Part shown: positions 6,199 through 22,812 of the stretch, in pieces
How the letters are laid out: each line of letters begins with the position of its first letter
Numbering within the stretch: position 1 is the stretch's first letter
Assembly: GCF_014218805.1 (NCBI RefSeq)
Contig: NZ_JACJUV010000001.1
Location: 3,670,501-3,734,500, forward strand
Reading direction: 5' to 3'
DNA length: 64,000 nucleotides
DNA from: Teredinibacter franksiae
Lineage (GTDB): Bacteria; Pseudomonadota; Gammaproteobacteria; Pseudomonadales; Cellvibrionaceae
The notes under the pieces: model-generated
Database searches by the model: none
The model's input: the letters and a program-made list of their open reading frames with translations, nothing else
Told to the model about the DNA's origin: nothing
Translations under genes and position numbers: made by a program

Positions 6199-7578
6199 CT
6201 ACAAAAAATCGAAAGAAACAGAAATTCGATTGTTTTTCTGGGCAACATCATTCCATATGTCGGCGGTAAGCTCGGGAGCTATTCGAGGGTAGTCATAGCG
6301 AGGACTGTCGTTACCGCTGGTGACTACATTGAGGTCGATAATACCTTCCTGAACGGGAAGGGCGTTTTGCTCGAAATTCAGGTATGGCAGGCTTAGATAG
6401 GAGTCTCTGGAATACTCGGTGGTGACATCTGCGCTAAAAACACACTTAGTTGTTGGTAGTGTAGGGTCTGCTAAAACAAGTGTGCCCTCTGCGCTCTGCT
6501 GCAAGCAGTAATTGCCAGAATGTATGTCTAGCTCTATGGCACCATTAAAGCCTACGCTGGAGAGCCGATAGACTAAGTTGCTGATTTTCAGCATCTGTTG
6601 TTCGTTTAGCGGTGCGGCTCGCCAGGGAAATTCTAAGTCTATATCCAGTGCCCAGCTCAAGGCGTCTAGTAACGCTGGGGCGACTCTCTGCGGTGCAAGT
6701 GTGGGCGGGGGCGCTCGCCTGCTGGCGTAGGTGTTCAGCAGCTTTACATTTTCATTGTTTAATTTAACTAGCTCGCCGTAATCCCGTTGTAGGCCCTTCA
6801 TTTCACCTTTGGTCTGAAAGATTTCATAGGCGATTAACGCTAGGCCGATAAAAATTAATACTAATAGAGAGCTGGAGATAAACGAAGACTTTCGCTGGTC
6901 AGCATCTATTTCTGCGTTTACAACCGACAGGGGCACATCACCAATGGTGGGCTCTTTACTGCTGTTTTTAACAATTTCTTCGCCTAGCCTACGCACAACA
7001 AAGCGAGAGTTTTCTGCAATTTGCTGCCGCATTTCTGCTATGTGCATTTTAAATAGGCGCGCAACTTGAGTGGCTACCTGTTCTTGTGCGGTGTCTTCCG
7101 GGGTGGGTTTGGGTTCGGCGACGACTGGTGGCGAGACCTGAGCAATTGCTGCCGGATTTTCAGTGGCGGCGGTTTTGGTGCTTTTAGCACTTTTTTCGGC
7201 GTTGTCTTTCGGTAATATTTTAAGGCTGGACAGCACGCGCTGGAGGTTAGAAGGTTTTATCGCTTCCTTAGAAAGAATATCCAACGCTCCGAGAGCTCGA
7301 GCTTGCCCGACATACACATCGCCTTTTTGTGCGGTGTACATGATCACCGGAATCATGGCTGTTTTGGGGTTGGCTTTAATGATTTTCAGCGCTTCAAATC
7401 CGTCCATCCCTTCCATGTGGTGATCCATAAAGATAACCGCGGGGTGACGATAACTGAGGTAACCTAAGGCTTCTTCAGCGCTGAAGCTTACGTCAACAAT
7501 AATGTCATACTGGGTGAGCATTTTTCTAAGACGAATCTGTGCCGTTTTGGAATCGTCAACAATCAATACCCGCTGCAT
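6199..7578 (-). CDS. Membrane-anchored response regulator (receiver + TM + C-terminal domain)
   Basis: Residues 1-120 form a CheY-like receiver: MQRVLIVDDSKTAQIRLRK with acidic pair D8/D9, phosphoacceptor Asp52 (VIFMDHHMEGMDG), Thr82 (MYTAQKGD) and Lys104 (DILSKEA). A Pro/Ala-rich linker (125-165) and a helical region lead to a single strongly hydrophobic segment at about 233-252, then a coiled coil (255-285) and an unassigned domain (about 300-459). No DNA-binding, GGDEF or kinase domain is visible. A receiver covalently joined to a transmembrane segment is unusual. Start ATG 7578 was preferred over the upstream in-frame start at 7626 because it begins exactly at the receiver beta-strand. 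It is divergent from regB and convergent with the chemoreceptor. Confidence 0.75.
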   Translation of the reverse strand: MQRVLIVDDSKTAQIRLRKMLTQYDIIVDVSFSAEEALGYLSYRHPAVIFMDHHMEGMDGFEALKIIKANPKTAMIPVIMYTAQKGDVYVGQARALGALDILSKEAIKPSNLQRVLSSLKILPKDNAEKSAKSTKTAATENPAAIAQVSPPVVAEPKPTPEDTAQEQVATQVARLFKMHIAEMRQQIAENSRFVVRRLGEEIVKNSSKEPTIGDVPLSVVNAEIDADQRKSSFISSSLLVLIFIGLALIAYEIFQTKGEMKGLQRDYGELVKLNNENVKLLNTYASRRAPPPTLAPQRVAPALLDALSWALDIDLEFPWRAAPLNEQQMLKISNLVYRLSSVGFNGAIELDIHSGNYCLQQSAEGTLVLADPTLPTTKCVFSADVTTEYSRDSYLSLPYLNFEQNALPVQEGIIDLNVVTSGNDSPRYDYPRIAPELTADIWNDVAQKNNRISVSFDFL

Positions 7579-7793
7579 TACTATTGCCTCACTTATTATT
7601 CTTTGGTGTGCCCGACATTTAATCAATCTTAAGCTCTATGCGCCAGCTTCGTCGGATGATATTGGCGCATAGTGTGGGATGTGTAGCACTTTTGGGGGGT
7701 ATTTCACCTAAAATGAAGGCATAGAACGGGCCAGGATTTCCTGCTGAGGCTATCCTCGTTTACACTTTAGGCTCTTTTAGATGAGTGCGTACC

Positions 7794-9044
7794 ATGTTTC
7801 AGCTTACCCGAACTCAGGGCGGTGACCGCAGGCAAATTTTGCGGGGCATGCTGTGGCTGCGAGTAATTGCCTTGGTGGGGGCGTTCTCCATGCTGGCTAT
7901 GTTCCAGTTGGCTTTAGCGAGGGAATTAGACTATCCGTTGCTTTACAGTATTGCCTTTGCTGCCGTGGCCTATACGATTGCGAGTTTTTTGCGGTTGCGC
8001 AGTGGCCTACCGGTTACCGACCTGGAGTTACTGGTACATTTGCTCATGGATGCGTTAATCCTACTGGTGTTGGTGGCGTTTTCTGGGAGGGCAACTAATC
8101 CGTTTATATACTACCTGTTGGTATTGGTTGCCGTTAGCGGGACTATTTTTACCCGTAAAGTAAGCTGGGCTTTTGCTGCGCTGGCCGTTGTGGCTTATAC
8201 GATGTTGTTGTATTTCGACCTCGAGGCGCACATACATCACCTGTTTAGTGATTTTCAGTTACACCTTATTGGCATGTGGGTGAACTTTGTTGCTAGTACA
8301 CTGTTGATGAATTTCTTTGTGTCCTCTCTGGCAACGGCTCTGCGGGACAGAGAGGTGCGTTTAGCGCATGCCCGCGAGCAAACGCTGAAAAACGAACAGT
8401 TAATTGGTATTGGTACCTTGGCCGCATCCACTGTTCACGCGCTGGGAACGCCTTTGTCGACAATGGCGGTCATGTTGGGGGAAATGCGGGCCGAACAGGA
8501 TGAAACCGAGGATATAGAGCTGCTGCTGGGCCAGGTCGATCGGTGCAAGAGTACGTTGGGGAGGTTGTCTCAGCTTGCGGGTGCCGAAGATCAGAGCGAA
8601 ACGCTGTTGGTAAAAGCGCTGGTAGAACAGCTACAGGAGCACTACTTTTTAGCAAATCCTGCGGTTATGCCCACATTTAACCTCGACGGGAGTGCCGCTG
8701 ACGTAAGACTGCATAGCAGCCTTTCCTTACCCTATGCGCTCATCAACCTGATTGATAACGCTATACGTGCAGCCCGAAAACGGGTGAGTGTGAATGTGAA
8801 TGCTTCTGAGGATGGAGTACATGTCGCCATTGTGGACGACGGTGCGGGGGTGCCTGAAGCGCTAGTCGAAAATTTCGGCATGCCCACCCTGTCGCGTCAG
8901 CAGGGTGGCCTTGGCATTGGTATTTTTTTGGCAAACACCACCATTGATAAGTTGGGCGGTAAAATTATGTTGTTCAACCCTGGTGAGAGTCGAAGCGGTA
9001 ACACAACGGTGTTGGTGGAATTAGCGCGAGCTGGAGAGGCGTGA
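7794..9044 (+). CDS. regB: RegB/PrrB-type redox sensor histidine kinase
   Basis: Inner-membrane kinase that senses redox/quinone state and phosphorylates RegA. Six hydrophobic segments occupy residues 18-180 and include GRATNPF (98-104), the RegB quinone/redox signature. The H-box has His215 (STVHALGTPLSTM), and QVDRCKSTLGRL holds Cys251 at the position of the redox-active cysteine of RegB. The ATP-binding domain has the N-box (NLIDNAIRAA), G1 (DDGAGVP) and G2 (GGLGIGIFLA). ATG 7794 is used; an in-frame GTG at 7785 is equally possible because neither has a good ribosome-binding site. The stop overlaps the start of regA. The Pseudomonas counterpart is called RoxS. Confidence 0.9.
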   Translation: MFQLTRTQGGDRRQILRGMLWLRVIALVGAFSMLAMFQLALARELDYPLLYSIAFAAVAYTIASFLRLRSGLPVTDLELLVHLLMDALILLVLVAFSGRATNPFIYYLLVLVAVSGTIFTRKVSWAFAALAVVAYTMLLYFDLEAHIHHLFSDFQLHLIGMWVNFVASTLLMNFFVSSLATALRDREVRLAHAREQTLKNEQLIGIGTLAASTVHALGTPLSTMAVMLGEMRAEQDETEDIELLLGQVDRCKSTLGRLSQLAGAEDQSETLLVKALVEQLQEHYFLANPAVMPTFNLDGSAADVRLHSSLSLPYALINLIDNAIRAARKRVSVNVNASEDGVHVAIVDDGAGVPEALVENFGMPTLSRQQGGLGIGIFLANTTIDKLGGKIMLFNPGESRSGNTTVLVELARAGEA

Positions 9045-9586
9045 TGGAACTTGATTTGGACCGTTTTTTTTATATTGAAGACGATGATGTCCTGGCTAGG
9101 GTGACAACCGCTGCGCTGACAAAAAGAGGGTATACAGTAGAGCATTTCCCCTCTATTGCGCTGGCGCGGGCTTGTCATTATCTGGACGAATTTGACTATG
9201 CTTTATTGGATCTAAAACTGGACGACGGTAATGCCATGTCACTTATTGAATTGTTGGTTAAGGCTAATCCGCAGATGCAGGTGCTGGTACTAACCGGCTA
9301 TGCCAGTATTGCCACAGCGGTGCAGGCGGTAAAAATGGGGGCTACAAATTATCTGGCAAAACCAGCAACGGTCGATGAAATTTTACGCGCGCTAGACCCT
9401 GAAGATACGAACGTTTTGGATCTACCGCAAGGTGAGAGTGAAATGTCTTTGCGTCGTCGGGAGTGGGAGACTATCCAGACAGCCCTCATGGCTAACGATG
9501 GCAATATTTCGGCTACCGCACGTCAACTCAAAATGCACCGCCGTACCCTGCAGCGAAAATTGCAAAAAAAACCCGTTATGGAATAG
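9044..9586 (+). CDS. regA: RegA/PrrA-type response regulator
   Basis: A 180-residue DNA-binding response regulator that controls respiratory and redox genes. The receiver has acidic residues in YIEDDDV, phosphoacceptor Asp56 (LLDLKLDDG), and the highly conserved LTGYASIATAVQAVKMGA and NYLAKPA segments typical of RegA. The C-terminal Fis-type helix-turn-helix (GNISATARQLKMHRRTLQRKL) is almost identical to family members. ATG 9044 overlaps the last base of the regB stop (TGATG), after a GGAGAGG ribosome-binding site, indicating translational coupling. The cognate kinase is the gene directly upstream. Confidence 0.93.
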   Translation: MELDLDRFFYIEDDDVLARVTTAALTKRGYTVEHFPSIALARACHYLDEFDYALLDLKLDDGNAMSLIELLVKANPQMQVLVLTGYASIATAVQAVKMGATNYLAKPATVDEILRALDPEDTNVLDLPQGESEMSLRRREWETIQTALMANDGNISATARQLKMHRRTLQRKLQKKPVME

Positions 9587-9666
9587 CGCTGTTGTTTATA
9601 TTTCAGCTACGTACGCCATAGTAGTATTACCCCCTTATTCTCTCCCGCCGTATAAACGGAATCCTC

Positions 9667-11001
9667 ATGCAGGCTAAATTTACTGAAGGCTCTATCTTTC
9701 GGCACGTTTGTGTCATGACGTTTGCGTCGACGGCAGGGCTATTGTCGCTATTTCTCGTAGACTTGGTGGACATGTATTGGCTGAGCCTGCTGGGTATTGT
9801 CGAATTGGCCGCGGCTATCGGGTATGCAGGGTCTATCCTGTTTTTCACCTTATCATTTGCCATCGGCCTATCAATTGGTTGTAGCGCCATGGTTTCTCAT
9901 GCCGTAGGCGGTGGCGACAAGGGGGAAACCGCGCAGTTAATCGGTAACCTGTTTCTAACTATATTCACGGTTAGTTTGGTTGTTTCGCTAGTAGCGCTAA
10001 TCTATGCGCCTTGGTTTTTGACAAAGTTAGGGGCTGAAGGGGCTGCGTTTGATTTCGCTCTTTCCTATTTGCGCATTGTTTTACCTAGCCTGTCGATAAT
10101 GTCGGTTGCCATGGCAACCGGAGGTGTTTTACGTGCGTTGGGCCACGCCAAGGAATCAATGTACCTCACTTTGTTTGGCGGCCTTGTGAACGCAGTATTG
10201 GACCCTATTCTTATTTTTTGGGTGGGGTGGGGCATTGAAGGTGCGGCTGTAGCGACGGTGTTGGCCCGAGTAGCGATGGTAACCTATGGTTTCTACCGAG
10301 TGGCGGGTGCTTATCAACTTCTGCGTATGCCGAAGATGTCTAGATTGCTTGCCGACATCCGCGAATATTTTGCAACAGCACTTCCTGCCGTTTTGACCAA
10401 CCTAGCAACGCCTATAGGCGTCGCCTATGTGACGGCTACCATGGCTCAGTTTGGCGATGGTGCGGTTGCCGGTAATACTATTATCAGCAAGTTACAGCCG
10501 CTGGCATTTGCGGGCTTGTTTGCGCTTTCGGGTTCTGTAGGGCCTATAGCCGGGCAAAACTTCGGTGCAGGAAAAATAGACAGAGTTATGGAAACCCTAA
10601 GCAGCAGCATCAAATTTATTGCCGTTTATTCTATAGTGGCTTGCTTAGTACTACTGACATTAACCGATGTTTTGATTTGGGCGTTCAAGGTGAAGGATGA
10701 AGCCGCAAGGTTAATTCGCTGGTTCTGTTACGGACTTAGCAGCATGTTTTTCTTCTCTGGTATAACCTTCGTTACCAACGCACTTTTTAATAATTTGCGC
10801 TTGGCTCATTGGGCGACCCTGTTTAACTTTTTTAGAGCAACCGTATTTACCATTCCATTTGTGCTATTTGGCGCAAAGTGGGGCGGGCCGGTTGGTATTA
10901 TGGTTGGCCTCTATATTGGCGCAGTGTTGGTGGCATTGGCTGGATTATTGATGGCGGTATACAAAATTCGCCAGCTGCCAGTTCAAGATAAAGTGGTTTA
11001 A
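9667..11001 (+). CDS. MATE-family multidrug/metabolite exporter
   Basis: A 444-residue inner-membrane protein with twelve hydrophobic helices in two similar halves, the MATE arrangement. It exports drugs or metabolites using Na+ or H+ gradients. Typical segments: FRHVCVMTFASTAGLLSLFLVDLVDMYWLS at the start (no cleavable signal), ALGHAKESMYLTLFGGLVNAVLDPILIF in the middle (the conserved N-x-x-LDPxLIF) and GPIAGQNFGAGKIDRVMETL in the second half. It is separated from regA by 80 bases and from the next porin-like gene by 38 bases, so it may be co-transcribed with the latter. Substrate cannot be told. Confidence 0.9.
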   Translation: MQAKFTEGSIFRHVCVMTFASTAGLLSLFLVDLVDMYWLSLLGIVELAAAIGYAGSILFFTLSFAIGLSIGCSAMVSHAVGGGDKGETAQLIGNLFLTIFTVSLVVSLVALIYAPWFLTKLGAEGAAFDFALSYLRIVLPSLSIMSVAMATGGVLRALGHAKESMYLTLFGGLVNAVLDPILIFWVGWGIEGAAVATVLARVAMVTYGFYRVAGAYQLLRMPKMSRLLADIREYFATALPAVLTNLATPIGVAYVTATMAQFGDGAVAGNTIISKLQPLAFAGLFALSGSVGPIAGQNFGAGKIDRVMETLSSSIKFIAVYSIVACLVLLTLTDVLIWAFKVKDEAARLIRWFCYGLSSMFFFSGITFVTNALFNNLRLAHWATLFNFFRATVFTIPFVLFGAKWGGPVGIMVGLYIGAVLVALAGLLMAVYKIRQLPVQDKVV

Positions 11002-11038
11002 AGAATTGATTCAAGAAAAATGATAGTGGAGTGAAATA

Positions 11039-11761
11039 ATGAAAAAAGCAGTGGCAATAATGTGTTTAGGCTTGTCTCTTAGTAGTGCACAGGTGCTTGC
11101 CGGTTCATATCAAGCGGAAGTTAATGGCGAATTAGCCCGAGTTGGTGTAGATGAGGGCAGTGACGGCACATTGTTTGCGGTGGGCGGTGAGTTCCATTTT
11201 TCACCTGTTGATACGTCGAATAAACCTTTAGCTGAAGCGGCGTTTCTTAACCGTTCTTCCAATATCAATGCCCAGATATTCGACAACGGCGGGACTGATG
11301 TAGCGTATACGCAATTGGGCGGCGAAGTGTATATTCCGAACTCTATTGTATATGTGGGCGTAGATTACACGCGCTGGGATATCGGTGGTGAAAGCGATGG
11401 CCGTATTTCAATTACGGGAGGGCTAACACCGATGCACGGGTTGTTGGTAACCACTACCTATGTTGAAGACGAAGGCTACGACCTGAACCTTTCGGCCAAA
11501 TATGTTACTAACCTTGCTGATCATGCCGTGAGCTTTAACGGCAGCTTTATCAATGATGATAACAATACATTAATTGCGGGTATGGATTTTTATGTAAGCA
11601 GAGCGACGAGCCTAGGTTTTGAATTGGTCGACACAGGTGCAAATACTCAATATACCTTGCGCGGCAAGCATTTCTTCACCCCGGATGCCTATGTGGGAGC
11701 CTATTTTTCCGATGGCGATGAGTCAAACACCTTTGGTGTTTTGGGTGGGTTAAGGTTCTAA
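11039..11761 (+). CDS. Putative outer-membrane beta-barrel (porin-like) protein
   Basis: A 240-residue exported protein. A Sec signal peptide (residues 1-22, ending VLAGSYQAE, AxG-type cleavage) precedes alternating hydrophobic/polar strands typical of small barrels, and the chain ends in GVLGGLRF with the terminal Phe required for BAM recognition. It resembles the putative porin family found in Shewanella and related genera, but I do not assign a specific function. A good ribosome-binding site (AGTGGAGTG) lies 8 bases upstream. It ends just before a strong terminator. It may be co-transcribed with the MATE gene. Confidence 0.7.
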   Translation: MKKAVAIMCLGLSLSSAQVLAGSYQAEVNGELARVGVDEGSDGTLFAVGGEFHFSPVDTSNKPLAEAAFLNRSSNINAQIFDNGGTDVAYTQLGGEVYIPNSIVYVGVDYTRWDIGGESDGRISITGGLTPMHGLLVTTTYVEDEGYDLNLSAKYVTNLADHAVSFNGSFINDDNNTLIAGMDFYVSRATSLGFELVDTGANTQYTLRGKHFFTPDAYVGAYFSDGDESNTFGVLGGLRF

Positions 11762-11770
11762 AATGGTAGC

Positions 11771-11800
11771 GATTGCTGGTGGCACACCAGCAATCTTTCT
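11771..11800 (+). terminator. Intrinsic terminator after the porin-like gene
   Basis: GATTGCTGGTG (11771-11781), loop GCA, CACCAGCAATC (11785-11795), an 11-bp perfect stem followed by TTTCTT. It separates the porin-like gene from the convergent acr3 gene. Confidence 0.85.
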
Positions 11801-11842
11801 TGGTTGGCAGGAGGTCTAGTATAGCAATTTCAAAATCAACCT

Positions 11843-12859
11843 TCATTCAAACCAATGGCGAGTTCGATTGGCAAAAGCTACCAGCGAGAGCATTACAGGT
11901 ACTTCGACCAGTACACCCACCACCGTCGCTAAAGCCGCGCCAGACTGTAATCCAAAGAGTGAGATAGCAACGGCAACGGCAAGCTCAAAGAAGTTTGATG
12001 TACCAATCATGCAGGCCGGAGCGGCGATGTTGTGAGGTAGTTTTAGCGCTTTGGCTGCGGCGTAGGCAATGGCGAATATGCCGTACGTCTGTATGAGCAG
12101 GGGGATCGCAATTAAAACAATTGCCAAAGGTTTTTGTAGTATCACTTCGGCCTGAAAGCCAAACAGTAGTACTACGGTGGCCAATAAACCAATGATGGAC
12201 CAGGGTTTTAGCTTGCTTACCAGGGCGTTAACTTCATGATGGTCCGATGATTTGTCTAGTAGCTTGCGGGTGAAAAGCCCGGCTAGAAGCGGGAGCAGAA
12301 CATACAGAAGTACAGATAGTAGTAAGGTTTCCCAGGGAACTTGTATGTTGGTAATACCCAGTAATAATGCGGCGAGCGGGGCGAACGCAAATATCATAAT
12401 AATATCGTTCACCGATACTTGCACTAAGGTGTAATTGGGGTCGCCTTTGGTTAATTGGCTCCAAACAAATACCATCGCGGTGCAGGGCGCTACGCCCAAT
12501 AAAATCATGCCCGCGATATATTCGTTAGCCGTTTGCGGGTCTACTAGGTGTGCGAAAAACACACGAAAAAATAGCCAGCCCAAAGCGGCCATAGTGAAGG
12601 GCTTAACTAGCCAGTTTATTATCAAGGTTAAAGCCAGCCCCTTGGGCTTTTTGCCAATATCCTTAATCGATGAAAAGTCGACCTGTATCATCATCGGGTA
12701 AATCATAATCCAGATAAAAACAGCGACTGGCAGGTTTACGTGAGCGACCTCTAGTGCAGCAAACACCTGGAAGATTCCAGGGGCCAAATTGCCAAGGGTG
12801 ACGCCGATTAATATGCATAGGCCTACCCAGACTGTTAGGTAACGCTCAAAAATACCCAT
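11843..12859 (-). CDS. acr3: Arsenite efflux permease, ACR3 family
   Basis: A 338-residue inner-membrane transporter with about ten helices, exporting As(III). Recognised by the ACR3 hallmarks [22 protein letters not shown] near residues 53-75, the [24 protein letters not shown] block containing the conserved thiolate Cys and nearby residues, [14 protein letters not shown], and [24 protein letters not shown] in the last third. Last gene of the arsR-arsC-acr3 operon: its ATG overlaps the arsC stop by one base (TAATG). Together the operon reduces arsenate to arsenite and exports it. Confidence 0.93.
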
Positions 12860-13332
12860 TAGTTTTCGCCTCCAATTTTAGTCAGTGCAGAATCTAGTTG
12901 AATTCGGTTTAGCTTGGTAATATCGAGTTTAAGCAGTTCTGAAACACGGGTTTCTATGGTTTTCATAAGGGCATAGAACGCGGTACGCTTTTTCTCTTCG
13001 CTACATTCCAGCTTGGATGGATCGGGTAGCCGCCAGTGAACGACTAGCGACTGGCCGAACCACGCGGGGCAAGTTTCTTTTGCTGCGCTGTCACACACGG
13101 TAAAGACTACATCCGGTGCGAAGGCTTCGTGTTCATCCCATGACTGGCTTTGCAAACCATCGGTACTAATGCCTTGTTCCTGCAAATATTTCAACGACAG
13201 CGGGTGCACTTCACCTGTCGGCGAGCTGCCGGCACTGCGGGCTATTATTTTGCCATTGCTCAGGTGGTTGGTAATGGCTTCTGCCAATATGCTGCGGCAG
13301 CGGTTGTGGGTACAAATAAACAGAACTTTCAT
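12859..13332 (-). CDS. arsC: Arsenate reductase, low-molecular-weight phosphatase (thioredoxin-coupled) type
   Basis: A 157-residue cytoplasmic enzyme reducing As(V) to As(III). It starts [14 protein letters not shown]: the Cys7-X5-Arg13 P-loop of the LMW-PTPase fold. Cys80 (FTVCDSAA) and Cys88 (ETCP) are at the positions of the second and third cysteines of the thioredoxin-linked ArsC triad, and the loop DPSKLEC follows with the general acid Asp. It lies between arsR (28 bases upstream) and acr3 (one-base overlap), so the three are one operon. Confidence 0.92.
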
Positions 13333-13360
13333 AGGAACCTTTTTTCGAATAGCGCTGAAT

Positions 13361-13693
13361 TTAACAGCGATTTAACACGCGCTTATTGACGCTAAGTTTA
13401 CGGGTAAGGCGCTCGACCCTGTCGAATTCTGCCTCGCCAGCATGGCGAACAATGGCTTGCGCCCATACTGGAAGCTGGGGGTGAAGCCGGTAAAATACCC
13501 ATTGCTCATGTCGGCGGTCGGCCAATACGCCGCACTTACGCAGTTGCGCTAAGTGGCGAGATATCTTGGGTTGACTCTCGTCTAGCAGCAACATTAATTC
13601 GCACACGCACAGCTCCCCCTGCCGCGCAATTAACAGGGTGGAAAGCTGCCGGGTTTCATCAGCAAAACATTTGAACAGGCTGAGGGGTGTCAT
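13361..13693 (-). CDS. arsR: ArsR-family arsenic-responsive repressor
   Basis: A 110-residue winged-helix SmtB/ArsR repressor that leaves DNA when As(III) binds. The metal site ELCVCEL (Cys29, Cys31) is the classic ELCVC motif on helix 3. It is followed by the recognition region LDESQPKISRHLAQLRKCGVLADRRHEQWVFYRL. First gene of the ars operon, beginning 36 bases from the inverted repeat at 13729-13748, its probable operator. Confidence 0.92.
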   Translation of the reverse strand: MTPLSLFKCFADETRQLSTLLIARQGELCVCELMLLLDESQPKISRHLAQLRKCGVLADRRHEQWVFYRLHPQLPVWAQAIVRHAGEAEFDRVERLTRKLSVNKRVLNRC

Positions 13694-14250: not shown

Positions 14251-14919
14251 ATGCAAGCTTTACTTAATCAGTTAGTGGAATATTCAGATTTTGCTTATGC
14301 CATGGCGCTTTCTGGCATTCTCCCCATCATTGTCGGCATGGTATATAAAAAGTACGGTAGCTCTGTCTCCAACAGAACGGTGTTTGCTCGTAATTTTCTT
14401 ATCATCACAATGTCTACCACATTAATTATTATAGTGGTTAAATCTTCCATCGCTCTATCACTCGGTCTAGTGGGAGCTTTGTCGATTGTGCGTTTCAGGG
14501 CGGCGATTAAAGAGCCTGAAGAAATTGCCTACTTGTTCTTTATTATTGCCATTGGCATTGGCCTAGGTGCCTTTCAGTTCGTCATCATTTTGGTTGCTAT
14601 CCCGTTTATTATTGGGCTGATAATTTTGCGCGCTCATATAGGTGGCAAGGTGAATAAGACCACGCCCATGGGCAACTACAATATTAATGTTATTAGTAAG
14701 CTGGCAAAAACCGCTGGTGTTGGCCCCATCAGTAATATTGTTAAAGAGCACACCACTAAGGCTGAGCTAAAGCATTATTCAGAAGATGAGCAATCAACTT
14801 CTATGCTGTTTTTTGCTGATATTTCGAGTTTGGAAAAGCTTGATGGATTTCGCAAATTATTGGTTGAGTATGAGCCTGGTATTGCTATCGATGTGGTAGC
14901 GAATCGCGAAATTAGCTAA
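14251..14919 (+). CDS. DUF4956 integral membrane protein
   Basis: A 222-residue membrane protein. Helices lie at about residues 12-30, 45-66, 70-80 and 95-135; the signature stretch is IALSLGLVGALSIVRFRAAIKEPEEIAYLF, diagnostic of DUF4956, followed by a soluble C-terminal domain of about 80 residues. DUF4956 proteins have no established activity but regularly neighbour VTC-domain polyphosphate polymerases and CotH-type proteins, exactly as here. ATG 14251 is chosen over an upstream GTG (14206) because GGAGCTCAG lies immediately upstream. First gene of a five-gene operon, 13 bases before the CotH gene, whose GGAGG ribosome-binding site directly follows this stop codon. Confidence 0.85.
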   Translation: MQALLNQLVEYSDFAYAMALSGILPIIVGMVYKKYGSSVSNRTVFARNFLIITMSTTLIIIVVKSSIALSLGLVGALSIVRFRAAIKEPEEIAYLFFIIAIGIGLGAFQFVIILVAIPFIIGLIILRAHIGGKVNKTTPMGNYNINVISKLAKTAGVGPISNIVKEHTTKAELKHYSEDEQSTSMLFFADISSLEKLDGFRKLLVEYEPGIAIDVVANREIS

Positions 14920-14932
14920 CGGAGGCATTGCC

Positions 14933-17900
14933 ATGATGGCCTCTAACGCCACAGAAAAAACGCAGAGGGTATCCCTTGTTGCGGCCCTATCTATTGTTGT
15001 TGCATTGCTTGCGGTGGCTATAGTCGCACTAGTGCTGCGCGAACTGCTCTCCTCGCCAGATGCCAGCGTCGTTATCGAAGAAGGAGGGGGGCGGTATACC
15101 GGTCACGCTTATGTCGATCGTACTTTAAAGCTCAGTCGTACAGTTTACAACGGTTCGGAAATAAAGTTAAAAATTGGTCATGTAATTTACAATAACCATA
15201 TTAGGCTAAATGTACCCGGAGCAAAGGAATACAGCGTTTCGTTTTTTAATAATAAGGATTTTATAGAATCGACGAAGTTTACTGCCCATAAAAACACCTT
15301 TAAAGTTACAGAGTTCGGCTATTTGCTTGAGGTTCCTGAGCGTGTGAGAGCGTTAGGTTTTGATGAGGTTATCGTCAGACCTAACTTCCAGTTCGACTTG
15401 AAAGTCTCCTTTGATGAGAGCGACCAGGTAAACATTGATCGCGGCTCCAAGCGAGTGACTATCCCGCAATTTATTTCAGAGCTGCCCAAAGATTATGTGG
15501 CGATTTTTTCCATTAAGGATGAGGGTACGCGCCATTTAAGCGATGAGCATAGAGATCAGCTCGCGAAAATGGGTTCAAAAATTAAAGACATTCGTTACCG
15601 CGGCTCGTGGGCTGCGATATGGCAAAATAATCGCCCACTGGCCGAAGATATTGGGTTGCCCAAAAAAATGGCGGAAATCGATGGTGCTAGTGTTGCAGCA
15701 CTTAAGCCGCTTCTTAAAGAGAAGGGTGTGAAACTTCTTGTGCAATCGGCGGGTTTTCAGGCCGGAAATGTTTCTCGCATCGTTATGAATGAAAAAGACC
15801 TTTCGCGAGACCGGCGCGGAATCAATATTGTCGTTTTAGATAATCATTTAAATACGGTTGCTTCTCTTACTGCCGATACATATTCAAAGGAAACGTTCTC
15901 GGTACCGAAATCGCTTAAACTCCATGCCAGTAGCTACGAAAGAATAAGTCTTGGCGAGGTTATGGCCAGCGTACCGAAAGATTTTTATACGCTTTTGGTT
16001 TCTAAGGGGCAGTACGTTCGTGCTCTCTCTGAGGGTAGTACAGAGTACTTTTCAGCGCTGGGTTCTACATTTGCGCAAGCGAAATCTGGTGAGTCTTATG
16101 TAGGGGTTTTCCGTGCAGGTAAAGTGTTAAGTGAAAAACTTGGGAAAGGTGGCCAAGCGTTGTCCTTGTTTGAGGTGCCCGAAATCAGTGAGGCTGCACA
16201 CAAAGCCAAAATGCCTGTCAGTTTGGTCTCCACAGCTGACGAGAGAGGAATGGCAGCCATTTATATTCAAGGCGAGGATGCCGCAGCCAATTCACCGGGA
16301 GTGAATATGGTGGTGTTAAGCCCTCAATTTGAAATCATTTCTCATCGTAGCTTTAATACTATTGTTAGCGATGATCATCGCAATATAACCCTGCTGGAAT
16401 CCTTTCCCCAGAAAGAATTAAAAACTGTGGCTGCGAAATCTGCGGCGCTTACTGAAGATAAGTTGCGCTTTACGATAAAGCCCAAGCACTACCAGCAACT
16501 GGTGGCCTTACGTGATGAAGCAATGTCGAGGGGGGGAGTTAAAGATGCGAGCAAGAAAAGCGTGCCAGCCAAACTCGATTTTCAGGGCGAGACCTATAAA
16601 GTTGACATGCGTTTTAAGGGTGACTGGTTAGACCATTTGGATACTGCACGCTGGTCGTACCGAGTTAATATGAAGGGCGCTAAGACTTTAATGGGAATGA
16701 AGCGGTTTTCTATTCAAACGCCGGGAACGCGTTCTCATATGTTCGAGTGGATTGTCCATGAGGTGTTTCGTCGGGAAGGTGGCATAACGCCGCGCTACGA
16801 TTTTGTTCCCGTTGATATTAACAATAAGGGCTTTGGTGTTTATGCTCTGGAGGAGCATTTCGGAAAGCGTTTGATTGAATTTCATGGGCGGAAGGAAGGG
16901 CCCATTTTGAAGTTTGATGAATCTGTTTTGTTTAAGTCAGCCGATGTTTTTGACGATGCCTTGGAAGATGGCGGTAGTTTTGATAATACGATAAAAACGT
17001 TGCTGAATTCAGATATAGACGTGTTCCAGACGAGTAAAACGTTGGAAGCTGATAATCTTCGAGAAAATTACCGTCGTGGTTATGCGCTGCTTGATGGTTT
17101 TAGAAAGAAGACGATGAAGCCTGGTGATGTGTTTGATATTGACGCCTTTGCGCGCTTTGTGTCCGTTACAGATATATTTCAGTCATGGCATGCGTTGCGC
17201 TGGCATAATCTACGCTTCTACTACAATCCAATAATTGATCGTCTTGAGCCTATTCTTTTTGATGCAGACAGACGAGGTGGATCCCAAAGGCTGCATTACT
17301 TTACCCGAAATCAAGACGAAATATTGGAATTGATGTTTAGCGATGATGAGTTTACGGCAAAATACTTTGCTAGGTTGGAAAAGCTTTCAGATCCCGATTA
17401 TTTTACTGAATTTCGCAACGATTATGCCGATGAGCTTAGTCATAAGAACAAGCTCCTGTCAGAAAATGGTGGCGATTATAAAATAAAATGGGAAGCGCTC
17501 AGTCGTAGGCAAGAGGTGATTCGTAACACGTTCTATGGTGGCAAGCCTTTGGATGCCATGGTATATCGTTTGCGGCCGGGCAAGCTGGACTTGGTGTTTG
17601 AGAATGACCTAGATGTGCCTTTTGAAATTAGAGGGCTGCGTATGGGTAGCAAGGAATATGCTCCAGCAAGATCGGGCGCCACCGTTAAAGCGAAAGGTAA
17701 AGGTGTACGGATTCGTTTTGCTATTGGTGCCGCCGACCTAGATTTGAGCAGCGAACCGATGCTGATCGATTACCGAGTACCTGGAACCTCCAAGTGGCGA
17801 GAATTGCAGGTTTTGCCTTTCAAAAACCCGCTAGCTGAGGTGGGCTTGAACGGTTTTGTTCGCAGCCCGGAAGCGGTTCTTCAGCGACCGTTTATTAAGC

Positions 17901-18817
17901 AGCCAAAAGCTGATGTGCTGCTTATAGCCAAAGGCGAGTGGACTCTAGATGAAGACTTAATAGTCCCTGAATCTAAACGGCTGATTATTGAGTCGGGTAC
18001 GCGTTTGGATCTTGTAAACCAAGCCAAAATCATCAGTTTTTCGCCGGTAACTATTGCGGGTTCAGTGGCCGAGCCTATTGTTATTCACTCAAGTGATAAT
18101 AGTTCCCAGGGGTTGACCGTTCTGCAGGCAAACAAATCAAAGGTTCATGACGGAAGCTCAGTGTTAAGCTTTGTAACTTTCGATGGGCTGTCTAACCCAA
18201 ATGATGATGGCTGGATGGTGCCCGGTTCCATTACTTTTTATCAGTCTGATGTATTGATTACCGAATCTGTTTTTAAAAACAATCATTGTGAAGATGCACT
18301 GAATATCGTGTCTTCGGATTTTTTGCTGACCAAGGTGGTATTTGAAAATACATACGGAGATGCTTTTGATTCGGATTTTTCAACAGGAAGGGTGATTGAT
18401 AGCCACTTCATCGATTCCGGTAATGATTCTGTAGATTTTTCCGGGAGCCGCGTGTTAATAAGTGATGTTAAAATTGATAACGCTGGAGACAAAGGCGTGA
18501 GCGCCGGTGAAGCAAGTACGCTAACGTTACGAAACCTTGTTGTAGACGGAGCCGAGATAGGTATAGCGAGTAAAGACGGTTCTAGGGTTGTTGGCCATGC
18601 CGTTGAAATAAAAAAATCCGTTATTGGTTTAGCCGCTTATCAAAAAAAGCCGGAGTACGGAAAAGCGCAGATCGATCTAAAGCAGTCCACCCTTAATTCT
18701 GAAATTAGCCTTCCCTTTATTTATGACGAGGGGTCGTCAATCTCGCTGAATGAGGAGCCCTTGTATATGGAGAAGAAAAAGAAAGAGCTGTTAATTGCAA
18801 AGATTGCAGGAGCCTAA
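14933..18817 (+). CDS. Large membrane-anchored CotH-kinase protein with ILEI-like and beta-helix regions
   Basis: A 1294-residue protein, N-terminal signal anchor at about 13-37, the rest outside the cytoplasm. Residues about 180-285, 295-400 and 455-490 carry repeated ILEI-like (interleukin-like EMT inducer) segments: RGINIVVLDNHLNTVAS, SPGVNMVVLSPQFEII, and GS-x-I-x-x-I-R-Y-R-G-S-W. Residues about 510-870 form the CotH kinase fold: MRFKGDWLDH (559-568), GVYALEEHFGKRLIE (635-649), HNLRFYYNP (758-766) and the DxD-like FDADRRGG (Asp777, Asp779). Residues about 1030-1250 look like a right-handed parallel beta-helix. CotH enzymes are atypical secreted kinases that phosphorylate proteins. A GGAGG site sits 7 bases before ATG 14933. 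The stop and the next start (GTG 18819) are one base apart. Confidence 0.82.
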   Translation: MMASNATEKTQRVSLVAALSIVVALLAVAIVALVLRELLSSPDASVVIEEGGGRYTGHAYVDRTLKLSRTVYNGSEIKLKIGHVIYNNHIRLNVPGAKEYSVSFFNNKDFIESTKFTAHKNTFKVTEFGYLLEVPERVRALGFDEVIVRPNFQFDLKVSFDESDQVNIDRGSKRVTIPQFISELPKDYVAIFSIKDEGTRHLSDEHRDQLAKMGSKIKDIRYRGSWAAIWQNNRPLAEDIGLPKKMAEIDGASVAALKPLLKEKGVKLLVQSAGFQAGNVSRIVMNEKDLSRDRRGINIVVLDNHLNTVASLTADTYSKETFSVPKSLKLHASSYERISLGEVMASVPKDFYTLLVSKGQYVRALSEGSTEYFSALGSTFAQAKSGESYVGVFRAGKVLSEKLGKGGQALSLFEVPEISEAAHKAKMPVSLVSTADERGMAAIYIQGEDAAANSPGVNMVVLSPQFEIISHRSFNTIVSDDHRNITLLESFPQKELKTVAAKSAALTEDKLRFTIKPKHYQQLVALRDEAMSRGGVKDASKKSVPAKLDFQGETYKVDMRFKGDWLDHLDTARWSYRVNMKGAKTLMGMKRFSIQTPGTRSHMFEWIVHEVFRREGGITPRYDFVPVDINNKGFGVYALEEHFGKRLIEFHGRKEGPILKFDESVLFKSADVFDDALEDGGSFDNTIKTLLNSDIDVFQTSKTLEADNLRENYRRGYALLDGFRKKTMKPGDVFDIDAFARFVSVTDIFQSWHALRWHNLRFYYNPIIDRLEPILFDADRRGGSQRLHYFTRNQDEILELMFSDDEFTAKYFARLEKLSDPDYFTEFRNDYADELSHKNKLLSENGGDYKIKWEALSRRQEVIRNTFYGGKPLDAMVYRLRPGKLDLVFENDLDVPFEIRGLRMGSKEYAPARSGATVKAKGKGVRIRFAIGAADLDLSSEPMLIDYRVPGTSKWRELQVLPFKNPLAEVGLNGFVRSPEAVLQRPFIKQPKADVLLIAKGEWTLDEDLIVPESKRLIIESGTRLDLVNQAKIISFSPVTIAGSVAEPIVIHSSDNSSQGLTVLQANKSKVHDGSSVLSFVTFDGLSNPNDDGWMVPGSITFYQSDVLITESVFKNNHCEDALNIVSSDFLLTKVVFENTYGDAFDSDFSTGRVIDSHFIDSGNDSVDFSGSRVLISDVKIDNAGDKGVSAGEASTLTLRNLVVDGAEIGIASKDGSRVVGHAVEIKKSVIGLAAYQKKPEYGKAQIDLKQSTLNSEISLPFIYDEGSSISLNEEPLYMEKKKKELLIAKIAGA

Positions 18818-18818
18818 C

Positions 18819-19496
18819 GTGGAGACTCAAAGTTACCGTTACGAACGAAAGTTCGTCGTAAACCAAAGTCGTATTACGGGGTTGTTCACGTTGTTGAAGC
18901 ATGGTGTACTTGGTTTTGCTGAAGCTTACCCCGAAAGAAAAATCAACAGCATTTATTTTGATGATTTGGCGCTCACCCAGTGTGCCGAGAATATTGATGG
19001 TATAGGGAAGCGCACAAAAATCCGAGTACGTTGGTATGGTGACAATAAAGGGATGGTGGTTAACCCTAAGCTCGAATTCAAAATCAAAAGTGCGTTAGTT
19101 GGCCGAAAAGAAATATTTCACGTTAATACCTTTGATGCTAATGGCTCTACACGGGATATTGTAAAGGCGTTGTTGGCGTCAGACTTGCCGCAAGACGTAA
19201 AGTTGCGTCTGCGTACGACTTCGCCCGTGGTGCAAGTGAGTTATTGGAGAAAATACTTTGAATCGCGAGACGGTCGCTATCGGCTGACATTTGATGATCG
19301 CATTCGATACTTTAATGCCGGTAACGGCGTTGTTCGCGGAGCCGGAAACCGGGATGATCGCAATATTGTTGAATTGAAGTATGATGTTGATAATGATGTA
19401 GAAGTGGAGCGCATTACTAATCGTTTCCCCTTCCGGTTGAGTAAAAATTCAAAATATGTGAACGCCATTCAATCCATTTATAGATTAAAAGTATAG
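18819..19496 (+). CDS. VTC-domain (polyphosphate polymerase type) protein
   Basis: A 225-residue soluble protein with the tunnel-fold (TTM) pattern of VTC4-type polyphosphate polymerases: ERK at residues 9-11, RVRWY with Arg69/Arg71, LEFKIK (Glu86, Lys88, Lys90), YWRKY (Arg144), RYRLTFDDRI (Arg153, Arg155, Asp159), VELKYD (Glu185, Lys187) and SKNSKY (Lys209, Lys212). These basic and acidic residues line the phosphate tunnel and bind metal in the family. GTG 18819 is chosen because a GCAGGAG site lies 6 bases before it and it follows the CotH stop directly. Whether the protein makes long-chain polyphosphate or supplies a phosphoryl substrate to its neighbours is not known. Confidence 0.85.
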   Translation: METQSYRYERKFVVNQSRITGLFTLLKHGVLGFAEAYPERKINSIYFDDLALTQCAENIDGIGKRTKIRVRWYGDNKGMVVNPKLEFKIKSALVGRKEIFHVNTFDANGSTRDIVKALLASDLPQDVKLRLRTTSPVVQVSYWRKYFESRDGRYRLTFDDRIRYFNAGNGVVRGAGNRDDRNIVELKYDVDNDVEVERITNRFPFRLSKNSKYVNAIQSIYRLKV

Positions 19497-19504
19497 GCAG
19501 CACT

Positions 19505-20326
19505 ATGACAATGCTAATGCGTGTTGTGTTGCTGATGCTGGTATGTGCCAGTATCAGCGCTTGCAAACAAAAAGTCGATGAGGGCCCCTTGCGTGTGGCG
19601 TTTCTATCGCACACTTACCACTTGCACACACATAAAGATATTCAAGCTATGTTGGTGGATAGTATTAACAAGGCAAATCCAAAATACATATTCTCGCTGG
19701 GTGATGTTGTTTTGGTGAACGATGCTTACCGCTGGGAGCATGCTAAGGCATTTCATTCCGGTTTTATGTCGCCAGTTTACTACTCACCAGGCAATCATGA
19801 TTTGCATAGCTTTTACGAAGTGGAGAGCCTAGAAACGAATCGCCACTATCCTCAACGGCGGCAGGAATATATTGATCAAATTGGATATGTGAATAAACAC
19901 GTTCAGGATGATAGGGCAGATTTCATTCTTTTCAACTCCAACGACCCCTATGTCACAACTAAGCCTTTTCTCGATCAGGCCATCGCAAGTGCAAACCCGG
20001 ACACTCCGAATTTTATGCTCACCCATCATCCCATATGGATTGATCGATTTGGTAAAAACTGGATTCAGTGGTACTGGAAGAGTATTAAACGCGAAGAGGT
20101 TGCGCCTCACCTGAAAGACTACAAACGTATTGTGGTTGGGGATGTTTCCGGTCGAATCCAAAATCATGAATTCGATGATACACCGGTTACTATGGTGGGT
20201 ATTGGCAATGATGGAGATCCGATATTTTGGGTGCTCGCAACGCTTCAGGAAAACGGCGATTTTACCTTCGAGGAGCAGCATATTCAGTTGCCACTTAACC
20301 ACCCTTATTTAAAGAAAAAGCACTAG
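19505..20326 (+). CDS. Calcineurin-like phosphoesterase lipoprotein (divergent metal site)
   Basis: A 273-residue lipoprotein: the signal peptide ends SISAC with lipidated Cys20. The mature part follows the metallophosphoesterase order: an FLSHTYHLH strand-turn (33-41), LGDVV (65-69), PGNHDL (95-100), LTHHPIW and VVGDVSGRIQNHEF. In the usual family the first motif is D-x-H and the last G-H-x-H; here these are altered (SHTYH and GDVSG), so the binuclear metal centre may be incomplete or rearranged. It sits 8 bases after the VTC gene and 9 before the next gene, so it belongs to the CotH/VTC operon and may act on a phosphorylated product in the envelope. Confidence 0.72.
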   Translation: MTMLMRVVLLMLVCASISACKQKVDEGPLRVAFLSHTYHLHTHKDIQAMLVDSINKANPKYIFSLGDVVLVNDAYRWEHAKAFHSGFMSPVYYSPGNHDLHSFYEVESLETNRHYPQRRQEYIDQIGYVNKHVQDDRADFILFNSNDPYVTTKPFLDQAIASANPDTPNFMLTHHPIWIDRFGKNWIQWYWKSIKREEVAPHLKDYKRIVVGDVSGRIQNHEFDDTPVTMVGIGNDGDPIFWVLATLQENGDFTFEEQHIQLPLNHPYLKKKH

Positions 20327-20335
20327 GAGGTTGTC

Positions 20336-20737
20336 ATGAAAACAAAGAAAACTTTTTCTGTTCTTTTTCTGTTTTGCCTATTTGTGGGTGTTTGGAGCCT
20401 GCCGGCCTACAGTGATATTCGACAGCAGTTGGTCGGCCAAGTGTGGAAAAAAGAAAGAGCGAATACGTTTAAAGGTGATTTAACCACGCTGTGGATGTTT
20501 TTTGAGGATGGCACGGGAATCGCTTATCAACGTTTTAATCGTAACGGTAGCATAAAGACACTCAACCATAGATTTACCTACATTATTGAGCAAAATAGAG
20601 TAACGATTCAGGAGGAAATTGATAAAGAGTGGGAGGGCTTGTACGGCGTTACGCACTGGACCTTGCAGCAGAACCAATTAATCGGTGATGTGAAGCTCGG
20701 TAAGAATCAATTGGTGTACACACCGGTTCAAATTTGA
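20336..20737 (+). CDS. Small secreted hypothetical protein ending the CotH/VTC operon
   Basis: A 133-residue exported protein with a Sec signal peptide (about 1-26, cleavage after PAYS). The mature domain of about 107 residues (VGQVWKKERAN, TLWMFFEDGTGIAYQRF, HWTLQQNQLIGDV) has the alternating-strand, Trp/Gly-rich look of a small lipocalin-like beta-barrel, but no family is recognised with confidence. A perfect AGGAGG ribosome-binding site precedes the ATG, 9 bases after the phosphoesterase stop, placing it last in the operon. Confidence 0.65.
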   Translation: MKTKKTFSVLFLFCLFVGVWSLPAYSDIRQQLVGQVWKKERANTFKGDLTTLWMFFEDGTGIAYQRFNRNGSIKTLNHRFTYIIEQNRVTIQEEIDKEWEGLYGVTHWTLQQNQLIGDVKLGKNQLVYTPVQI

Positions 20738-20862: not shown

Positions 20863-22812
20863 TTAGTCTTTGGGTGAAAAGGTGAAAGCGTTGTCGTTAC
20901 CCTTTGCAACCGTAAAGTTGAATGTCTGGTTTTCGCCATTTACAAAAACTATGGCTTCGTATTCTCCGTAAAAGCCCCGCTGAGAATATTGTCCTTCTGT
21001 ATTTGTTTGCCCCTTAAAGTTATTCCACCAAACCGTATATATCTGGTTTTTCCACGCCGTGGCATTAGGTTTTTCTCGCCACTCTTCGGTAAATAGCGCT
21101 GCTTTTGGTGAGTAGTGAGCCCCCGCCCAAAAACCCCATAATTGAACGCCAACAGTAGCTGGATGGCTGAACATAATGGTGAGAAAGTCACGCGTGTAGT
21201 CCGCCTGTAGTTCTTCATCTTCACTGTTCACATCAAATTCCGTAACGCGAATATCAAGCTCTGGAAAGGCGGTGTTATAGCGGTTGAGAATGTTGTACAC
21301 CAATTCAATTCCGGTGGGCGAATCACCAAAGTGCCCCTGCATGCCTATACCGGTAATCGGTGCTTCATTGTCGACTAGGTATTGAAGCGTATCTTCAAAA
21401 TGTTGCTGGTGTACTGCATTGCGGCCGCCGGCCGAGAGAATGCTGTAGTCATTTAGGTAAAGCTTGTGGTCGGAAAGGTTGGTTCGGGCGCGGTTGAACC
21501 AGTCGACCATTACTTGATCGCCAAAGGCGTCCATTAGATAGTGGTTGTCGTAGGGTTCATTGATTACATCCCATTCATCTAGATAATTGGCTGAAGCGCT
21601 GGCAATGTCATCAATATGGCCGAGTACAGCCTGCTTGGCTTGAGGGTTGGCACTAGCCGGGTCGCCTTCAGGTAAGTATTTTTGCATCAGCTTGGGCAGG
21701 TTACGTTTAGACGGCCACACCATGACATGGCCACGGGTGTATAGGCCGTTATCGCGCAGCCACTGTAGGCCTGCAAGGGTTTGGACCTTGTTATAATTGT
21801 TACCCCACTCGCCTTCCCAGGGGGCCCACTTCAAGTCGTTCTCTGGGCCGCTTTGGTTAAATAGCTCCAGTACTTTTTCTTTATAGAGAGTGCTGTCTCT
21901 ATCGTTACCCGCCAGTACTTTACCGACTGTGACAGAGCCAAAGTGATAGGCGTGCTTAAGGAGGTTGATGTCAACGGTGGCGGCGCTTGCAGGTTTGCCA
22001 TCGGCGCCAATTACGGTGATTTCGAAGTCGCCCTTGCGGTGCAGCTCAATCCGCTCGCTGGCGGCGGCACGCCAGCTGGCATCTTCCGCTCGGCCTTCGT
22101 AGCTGGGGCGTGTACTGGGCAGTTGGGAGATATCGAAATCACCGTAATTATAGAGCTCCACACCGGCAATATCGAAAACCTGGACCCTACTTCCGGCACC
22201 AAAACCGAATTTTAGCTCTAGGTTACCGCCCGCTTGGGTGTCTGTGACGGTCGCTGGAAGGTAGTATTCAACCCATTCGAAGGAGGCGCTGACCTCTCGG
22301 GTAAGGTATTTGCCGTTGGTACTGATATCTTCCAGAAAAACGGTTACGAAGCTATTGCCCGACTCATATGTGTTTTCCACTGAGCGCATAAAAAAGTGTG
22401 CCAGTACCACATCACCGCTTTTCAGGCTGGTGGTTACCGGAAACATCAGTTGTCCCTTCCAGAATTCACCTGCAGGCCGCTCTACGCTGATACGTGACGC
22501 GCGGGAGAAGTCTTCGTGGTCCACTTCGATAATGGATTTATTGCCAACAGCGGCACCATCGTTTACGCCTTCCCAGAACCGAGCGTTGCCGAGGTTGCGG
22601 TCAATAATAAGATTGCCGCCCGTAGGCACGCCACCTGTGCTGGTGTTGGGCAGGATAGTTGGGGTCGAGGCTGGCGCTGTGGTTGGTGTTGCTGTTGGTT
22701 GTTGGGTGGGGGTAACAGCTCCGTTGTTAAGCCTTATATCGCCCCCGCCGCTGCAGGCGACGATGAGTAGGGACGGCAATAGAGTTGCCAATAGTATTTT
22801 TTTTATCGTCAT
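20863..22812 (-). CDS. GH10 endo-1,4-beta-xylanase lipoprotein with N-terminal carbohydrate-binding module
   Basis: A 649-residue surface lipoprotein (lipobox LIVAC, Cys20) that cleaves xylan. A Thr/Pro/Ala-rich linker (about 34-60) follows the anchor, then a jelly-roll carbohydrate-binding-type domain (about 68-220, with GEFWKGQLMFPV and FDIAGVELYNYG). The GH10 barrel starts near 235: acid/base Glu419 in WDVINEPYDN, nucleophile Glu525 in VTEFDVNSED, the WGFWAGAHYSP block near the end, and GHVMVWPS in barrel strand 3. The upstream gene is a divergent TonB receptor, so the pair share a 280-base regulatory region. Function is certain at family level; cleavage pattern is not. Confidence 0.95.
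   Translation of the reverse strand: MTIKKILLATLLPSLLIVACSGGGDIRLNNGAVTPTQQPTATPTTAPASTPTILPNTSTGGVPTGGNLIIDRNLGNARFWEGVNDGAAVGNKSIIEVDHEDFSRASRISVERPAGEFWKGQLMFPVTTSLKSGDVVLAHFFMRSVENTYESGNSFVTVFLEDISTNGKYLTREVSASFEWVEYYLPATVTDTQAGGNLELKFGFGAGSRVQVFDIAGVELYNYGDFDISQLPSTRPSYEGRAEDASWRAAASERIELHRKGDFEITVIGADGKPASAATVDINLLKHAYHFGSVTVGKVLAGNDRDSTLYKEKVLELFNQSGPENDLKWAPWEGEWGNNYNKVQTLAGLQWLRDNGLYTRGHVMVWPSKRNLPKLMQKYLPEGDPASANPQAKQAVLGHIDDIASASANYLDEWDVINEPYDNHYLMDAFGDQVMVDWFNRARTNLSDHKLYLNDYSILSAGGRNAVHQQHFEDTLQYLVDNEAPITGIGMQGHFGDSPTGIELVYNILNRYNTAFPELDIRVTEFDVNSEDEELQADYTRDFLTIMFSHPATVGVQLWGFWAGAHYSPKAALFTEEWREKPNATAWKNQIYTVWWNNFKGQTNTEGQYSQRGFYGEYEAIVFVNGENQTFNFTVAKGNDNAFTFSPKD

Follow-up and report, generated by a model that had tools for sequence, protein, structure and literature searches.

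What could join a VTC-domain protein, a DUF4956 membrane protein and a large membrane-anchored CotH-type protein in one operon? The question is raised by five genes of Teredinibacter franksiae within a 64,000-nucleotide stretch of contig NZ_JACJUV010000001.1 (assembly GCF_014218805.1, positions 3,670,501 to 3,734,500; "the window" below means this whole stretch), where these three are followed by genes for a metallophosphoesterase-like lipoprotein and a small secreted protein. An earlier note on this DNA had read the operon as a phosphotransfer system in which a cytosolic VTC product drives a CotH kinase acting on the envelope and the lipoprotein removes the phosphate. Our analysis supports that interpretation in part: the envelope destination fits, and the note had overlooked a C-terminal beta-helix in the CotH-type protein, the loss of its catalytic Asp, altered metal motifs in the phosphoesterase and a prior description of such genes as Pel accessories. 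We propose that the operon is a Pel-independent DUF4956-CotH-VTC module, a polyphosphate-linked machine that builds or modifies a surface glycan, and put the probability of this reading at roughly 0.4. It draws on homology, conservation and gene order, from which we infer polyphosphate synthesis, its export and the glycan target.

Recurrence of the gene set

To collect related loci we ran a profile of 41 VTC proteins against genome contigs and kept the best 80 of 247 confirmed loci, a sample that leans toward near relatives of this VTC type; neighbours were counted with profiles built from the loci, within 4.5 kb and on the same strand. DUF4956 recurs next to VTC, as the earlier note had said, in 75 of the 80 loci, CotH in 68, both in 65, and both together with a beta-helix in 54. 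The surface partner met most often in these loci is a CotH fold that lacks the catalytic Asp and is fused to a beta-helix. Loci with the trio are titled Sedimentisphaerales (L007), Acidimicrobiia (L010), Nitrosomonas (L013), Krumholzibacteriia (L016), Gammaproteobacteria (L018), Planctomycetota (L032), Poribacteria (L046), KSB1 (L048), Deltaproteobacteria (L061) and Curtissbacteria (L085), along with many Bacteroidota; the trio is a widespread module, present in many phyla. VTC is rare in the window's own order (19/390 genomes). Of the 19 distinct VTC loci from this order that span no more than about 3.6 kb (L087-L105), 15 contain DUF4956, as do all 15 longer stretches, one of which (L113) carries its VTC in a frame dropped by our overlap rule.

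All five genes occur together in three genomes, the window's own (G000), G440 and G484. G440, from the same genus, has them in the window's order; in G484 the order is phosphoesterase, small protein, DUF4956, CotH, VTC, and the CotH protein is shorter, with its ILEI part undetectable. Beyond the five genes, the fetched stretches gave one match to the window, between a G440 open reading frame and the window GH10 protein (26% identity), and the nearest typed flanks are AnmK and M23 in G440 and HemN, Crp and an SdiA-regulated protein in G484. Because the set stays together while order and site vary, we regard it as a functional unit, to which in this lineage the fourth and fifth genes also belong. 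The earlier note had named lack of recurrence in other genomes as a refutation, and the set does recur, as the trio in 65/80 loci and as all five genes in these three genomes.

The tight packing described previously, with gaps of 1 to 13 bases, was confirmed: the five open reading frames, all on the + strand, are separated by 13, 1, 8 and 9 bases. Promoter and terminator scans of the window stayed at shuffle level (14 promoter-like sites against a shuffle mean of 13.7, and 6 terminator-like sites against 7.4) and are uninformative, so the case for co-transcription consists of gene spacing and conserved order only. These scans, and the lack of expression data, are what can be said for chance neighbours that form no functional unit, an explanation made scarcely credible by recurrence of the trio across phyla and by a five-gene unit that stands at three different sites and is once permuted.

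The trio has been described as a set of accessory genes of Gram-positive pel clusters (PMC7112168 and PMC12345266, in the portions available), and the available part of PMC12345266 reports the arrangement as not found outside the Pel locus. We searched for one pel gene, PelG, and found it absent from the whole genome that holds the operon; a Pel link in this organism is accordingly rejected. Among 68 VTC-bearing genomes tested (those of 50 of the 80 loci plus 18 genomes of the order), PelG was present in two and absent in 66; in G376 it lies on a different contig from VTC, and in G427 it is on contig 492. In this sample the trio is mainly Pel-independent. Our literature search, whose coverage left out most subscription papers and bioRxiv, returned no report of a Pel-independent trio. 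The trio appears to be a general module and not a Pel peculiarity, with a distribution wider than reported.

The proteins of the operon

The VTC protein matches PF09359 at 95.4 bits (curated cut-off 23), and this is the sole domain detected in it by Pfam, with no SPX; no other VTC match was found in the genome beyond the window. As single sequences, the VTC and CotH proteins gave weak or chance matches only against the PDB, and a VTC profile then recovered the Vtc structures. In the profile alignment with the Vtc2 and Vtc4 structures, from which we read the Vtc numbering, window residues R69, R71, K88, Y142, R144 and R155 align with Vtc4 R264, R266, K281, Y359, R361 and R373, the last four of which we take to be tunnel residues; E185 was equated with E426 by its position on the last strand and not by this alignment. 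All seven are invariant in 41/41 VTC proteins, so the claim that all tunnel residues are present is true for those checked, and judged from them the VTC domain retains its polymerase tunnel. In the accessible text on the yeast complex, the R264A/R266A/E426N form of Vtc4 is catalytically impaired, and a basic path runs unbroken from the tunnel into the transmembrane channel (PMC9911596).

The DUF4956 protein scores 45.3 bits against PF16316 (curated cut-off 30.6), and its AlphaFold2 model has a predicted local distance difference test score (pLDDT) of 86.8. The model begins with five long predicted helices, which we take as transmembrane, and a fold search with it assigned residues 138-222 to an ACT/PII-like ferredoxin fold that is probably cytosolic. 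Two DUF4956 proteins elsewhere (L008:879-2459 and L010:8590-9984) have at their N-terminus a sugar-related stretch of PF06439 type that scores below cut-off, a hint of N-out topology. In one genome of the order a Cthe_2159 carbohydrate-binding protein directly adjoins DUF4956 (L113:6187-7725).

The 1294-residue protein consists of an N-terminal hydrophobic helix, ILEI-type modules, a CotH-type kinase fold, confirmed by a fold match, and a C-terminal right-handed beta-helix. Pfam finds two ILEI stretches in it; ILEI occurs in 3 of the 16 relatives listed (the window protein, P0002 and P0003) and in 0/80 VTC loci. The beta-helix contains many near-invariant Asp, Glu and Lys residues and, in its predicted structure, resembles alginate epimerases at fold level.

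The earlier note's model, an active CotH kinase in the envelope that draws on a phosphate product from the cytosol and is counteracted by a lipoprotein phosphatase, has in its favour the CotH fold itself and much of the surrounding site: in our alignment of 57 rows the second Asp (D251 of Bacillus subtilis CotH, Asp777 in the window) is Asp in 51 rows and Glu in 6, Lys562 is kept in 55 and Glu641 in 56, and activity is known for some pseudokinase-like proteins, as far as the text consulted goes. The catalytic-Asp column (D228) holds Asp in none of the 57 rows; it holds Gly in 29, Ala and Ser in 11 each, Thr in 3, Pro and Asn in one each, and one gap, and is directly preceded by a near-invariant His. 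The register at Ala754 is supported by the distance to the second Asp, 23 residues in both 5jd9 and the window protein. Since D228Q inactivates B. subtilis CotH (PMC7821199, available text) and no row has the Asp, ordinary kinase activity of the window domain is unlikely, and with a phosphoesterase that lacks motifs I and V we consider the kinase-phosphatase cycle as a whole quite unlikely. An automatic tally of beta-helix against Asp scored nine helix-bearing proteins as 'D'; these residues are Asp off the catalytic place or come from misaligned rows, and we prefer the column count. L110 (HFDSQHN), which is helix-bearing and outside the 57 rows, is ambiguous at the catalytic place. The CotH domains of L054 and L072 have a PWD motif and read 'NGSTYYHN' at that place, apparently another CotH group without the catalytic Asp.

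In calcineurin-like phosphoesterases motif I is D-x-H and motif V is G-H-x-H. The window lipoprotein keeps motifs II (GD), III (GNH) and IV (H), with D67, N97/H98 and H174 invariant in 5/5 close relatives, all of which read [SG]HTY at motif I and GDxxG at motif V. Of 19 further relatives encoded no more than 5 kb from a VTC gene, on either strand, 18 likewise lack the motif I Asp, most of which have AGHxY at motif I and GD at motif V; the exception, L064, keeps D-x-H. With such motifs the site is more probably rewired or inactive than that of an ordinary phosphatase, and the claim that the lipoprotein removes phosphate is doubtful. A relative of it accompanies 13/80 VTC loci by the neighbour count, and among eight genomes of the genus the gene is present in G000 and G440; a marginal G442 match (E 7e-4, 27% identity, inside a 755-codon frame) was not counted. 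The small secreted protein has no Pfam family above cut-off and occurs in 3/144 genomes of the family, the same three that hold all five genes. Labels such as 'CotH kinase' and 'phosphoesterase', when assigned automatically, may mislead here.

Signal-peptide and lipoprotein assignments in the table come from N-termini judged by eye, with no prediction tool. The genome is 5.4 Mb in size; judged by protein names, its nearest named relative is Teredinibacter haidensis, a shipworm symbiont. The five genes have a GC content at third codon positions of 0.43 to 0.48, against 0.499 (standard deviation 0.044) for 39 other open reading frames, an offset too small to prove horizontal transfer. Divergent from the operon (window 11843-13693) is an ArsR regulator, by family match, beside what we read from the open reading frames as an ACR3-like transporter and an ArsC-type phosphatase. 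A secreted GH10 protein is convergent with it (20863-22812).

Table 1. Features of the operon, in window coordinates
Feature	Position	Strand	Basis
DUF4956 membrane protein, 222 residues	14251..14919	+	PF16316, E 9.9e-12
Membrane-anchored multidomain CotH-type protein, 1294 residues	14933..18817	+	Open reading frame, Pfam, structure-based fold matches
Best ILEI stretch, residues 170-232	15440..15628	+	PF15711, E 5.3e-19
CotH-type kinase fold, residues 507-868	16451..17536	+	Pfam CotH, E 2.2e-8
Ala754, at position of B. subtilis CotH catalytic Asp228	17192..17194	+	Alignment, 57 rows
Asp777, at position of CotH Asp251, kept	17261..17263	+	Alignment, 57 rows
Right-handed beta-helix, residues 973-1281	17849..18775	+	Predicted fold
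VTC-domain protein, 225 residues, soluble, GTG start	18819..19496	+	PF09359, E 5e-27
Metallophosphoesterase-fold lipoprotein, 273 residues	19505..20326	+	PF00149, E 3.9e-6
Small secreted protein, 133 residues	20336..20737	+	Open reading frame

Proposed function

According to our preferred reading, the soluble VTC protein would convert ATP to polyphosphate on the cytosolic side of the inner membrane, and DUF4956, with its five transmembrane helices and ACT/PII-like cytosolic domain, would anchor and regulate VTC and probably pass the chain or a phosphate signal to the periplasm (compare the transmembrane and SPX parts of yeast VTC). The membrane-anchored CotH-fold/beta-helix protein would be the periplasmic partner. 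Its beta-helix would act on or hold a polysaccharide, and its kinase fold, which lacks the catalytic Asp, would bind nucleotide or polyphosphate or else catalyse some unusual transfer. The other two proteins, the phosphoesterase-like lipoprotein and the small secreted one, would be accessories of this lineage. A more specific version, which we think unlikely, is a split VTC machine: VTC and DUF4956 would make polyphosphate and export it; beyond the cytosol, where little ATP is available, the polymer would act as donor of phosphoryl groups, or as anionic partner, for an enzyme of CotH fold whose site is rebuilt (His-Gly/Ala/Ser) and which modifies the polysaccharide bound by its own beta-helix. 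If true, this would amount to polyphosphate-powered extracytoplasmic glycan modification in many phyla. The operon bears on how phosphate transfer beyond the cytosol is powered and on the role of bacterial VTC proteins.

Related loci contain a porin. Porin_O_P adjoins VTC-DUF4956 in 8 of 18 other VTC-bearing genomes of the order (L114, L116, L117, L118, L120, L121, L123 and L093), and in several of these loci CotH has the catalytic Asp; porin plus VTC-DUF4956 could possibly form a complete inner-to-outer membrane phosphate route. In G328 a single frame on the - strand (L101:1279-2019) has a partial VTC match followed by a 62-residue porin end, and looks like the remnant of a VTC-DUF4956-porin operon that lost its middle. 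The window's own genome has a second DUF4956 locus (L006, G000:C1:2564000-2583999, 6298-13461) with DUF4956, Porin_O_P, CotH and GH9 and no VTC.

Neighbour clusters within 7.5 kb (one representative typed per cluster, and no background control) were compiled for the 78 loci in which a VTC frame was called. They include GT2 at 22 loci, MBOAT at 7 and inorganic pyrophosphatase at 6 (L025, L033, L036, L038, L044 and L077, in each case on the strand of the trio); the window belongs to none of these clusters.

Several observations weigh against the polyphosphate-linked reading. DUF4956 occurs without CotH in 10/80 loci, CotH without DUF4956 in 3/80, and neither in 2/80 (L012 and L079), several of these loci lying near contig ends. 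Porin_O_P is found in 0/80 collection loci and beside 0/4 loci with a beta-helix CotH in the 15 longer stretches of the order, and the suggestive GT2 count of 22/78 has no background control. The fold matches to DUF4956 include no channel for its transmembrane part, the list being filled by the C-terminal domain, and an assay of a bacterial VTC domain was absent from our literature search results. In the accessible text on Streptococcus intermedius (PMC7112168 / PMC12345266), the VTC mutant still aggregates, with no decrease reported, and the DUF4956 mutant has Pel up, not down; these outcomes count against a simple supply line. The genome also has a PPK1-family gene, so VTC is not its sole polyphosphate route, and a VTC role in polyphosphate would be expected to be dedicated and not general.

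The streptococcal mutants fit a module that regulates or modifies surface polysaccharide and exports no polyphosphate. In it, nucleotide or phosphate state would be sensed or buffered by VTC and the ACT/PII-like domain of DUF4956, which would relay a signal across the membrane to the CotH/beta-helix protein. The rise in Pel is as for a negative regulator, no VTC phenotype is reported in the same accessible text, and the DUF4956 C-terminus is like nucleotide-sensing ACT/PII-like domains. Nonetheless, the fully conserved, polymerase-like tunnel and the recurrence of a phosphate/polyphosphate-type porin family beside the related version with canonical CotH make this explanation somewhat unlikely. 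The PPK1-family gene, for its part, would suit a VTC protein that is a polyphosphate or triphosphate hydrolase, or a maker of cytosolic storage polymer, with neighbours doing unrelated envelope work; other tunnel metalloenzymes are phosphatases or cyclases, in the sources as far as available. With DUF4956 beside VTC in 75/80 loci and a tunnel pattern as in Vtc4, we hold this to be at least as doubtful as an active kinase.

Comparison with known systems

Among the closest known arrangements is the S. intermedius pel cluster, where, in the available description, the same three families are adjacent (SIR_1592 to SIR_1594); the accessory genes of Gram-positive clusters of this kind code for CotH, poly-P polymerase, DUF4956 and DUF4832. 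We read SIR_1592 as the DUF4956 gene from its described transmembrane and ACT parts. Unlike the hosts of such pel clusters, the window's host is Gram-negative and lacks PelG; its operon has two extra genes, and its CotH, which lacks the catalytic Asp, is joined in one protein with ILEI modules and a beta-helix. The Clostridium perfringens NELoc-2 cluster (VTC-'tubulin'-resolvase-VTC-'tubulin'-CotH-...-glycosyltransferase) places VTC, CotH and a glycosyltransferase in one locus, and we would guess that its 'tubulin' products are about as large as DUF4956 proteins; that cluster is Gram-positive and differently arranged, and the accessible text reports no beta-helix (PMC2879425). A Zetaproteobacteria stalk cluster holds a CotH protein, and was not used, 'VTC' and 'DUF' being absent from the paper's text (PMC8250860).

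Compared with the CotH spore-coat kinases (5jd9/5jda), the window's relatives have the catalytic Asp swapped, mostly for Gly, Ala or Ser. The second locus of the same genome shares the DUF4956 and CotH families with the operon, but has a porin and no VTC, and its CotH is canonical, with the catalytic Asp and with LTD and chitobiase-type domains. To the alginate C5-epimerases AlgG and AlgE the likeness is that of a right-handed beta-helix, in fold only. The yeast VTC complex (Vtc1/3/4) differs in that the window VTC has no SPX found, that polymerase and transmembrane parts are separate proteins, and that the DUF4956 transmembrane part is without shown kinship to the Vtc channel. Common to both is the Vtc4-type catalytic tunnel, and by analogy the membrane and sensor parts of the yeast complex would in the window system be supplied by a partner protein.

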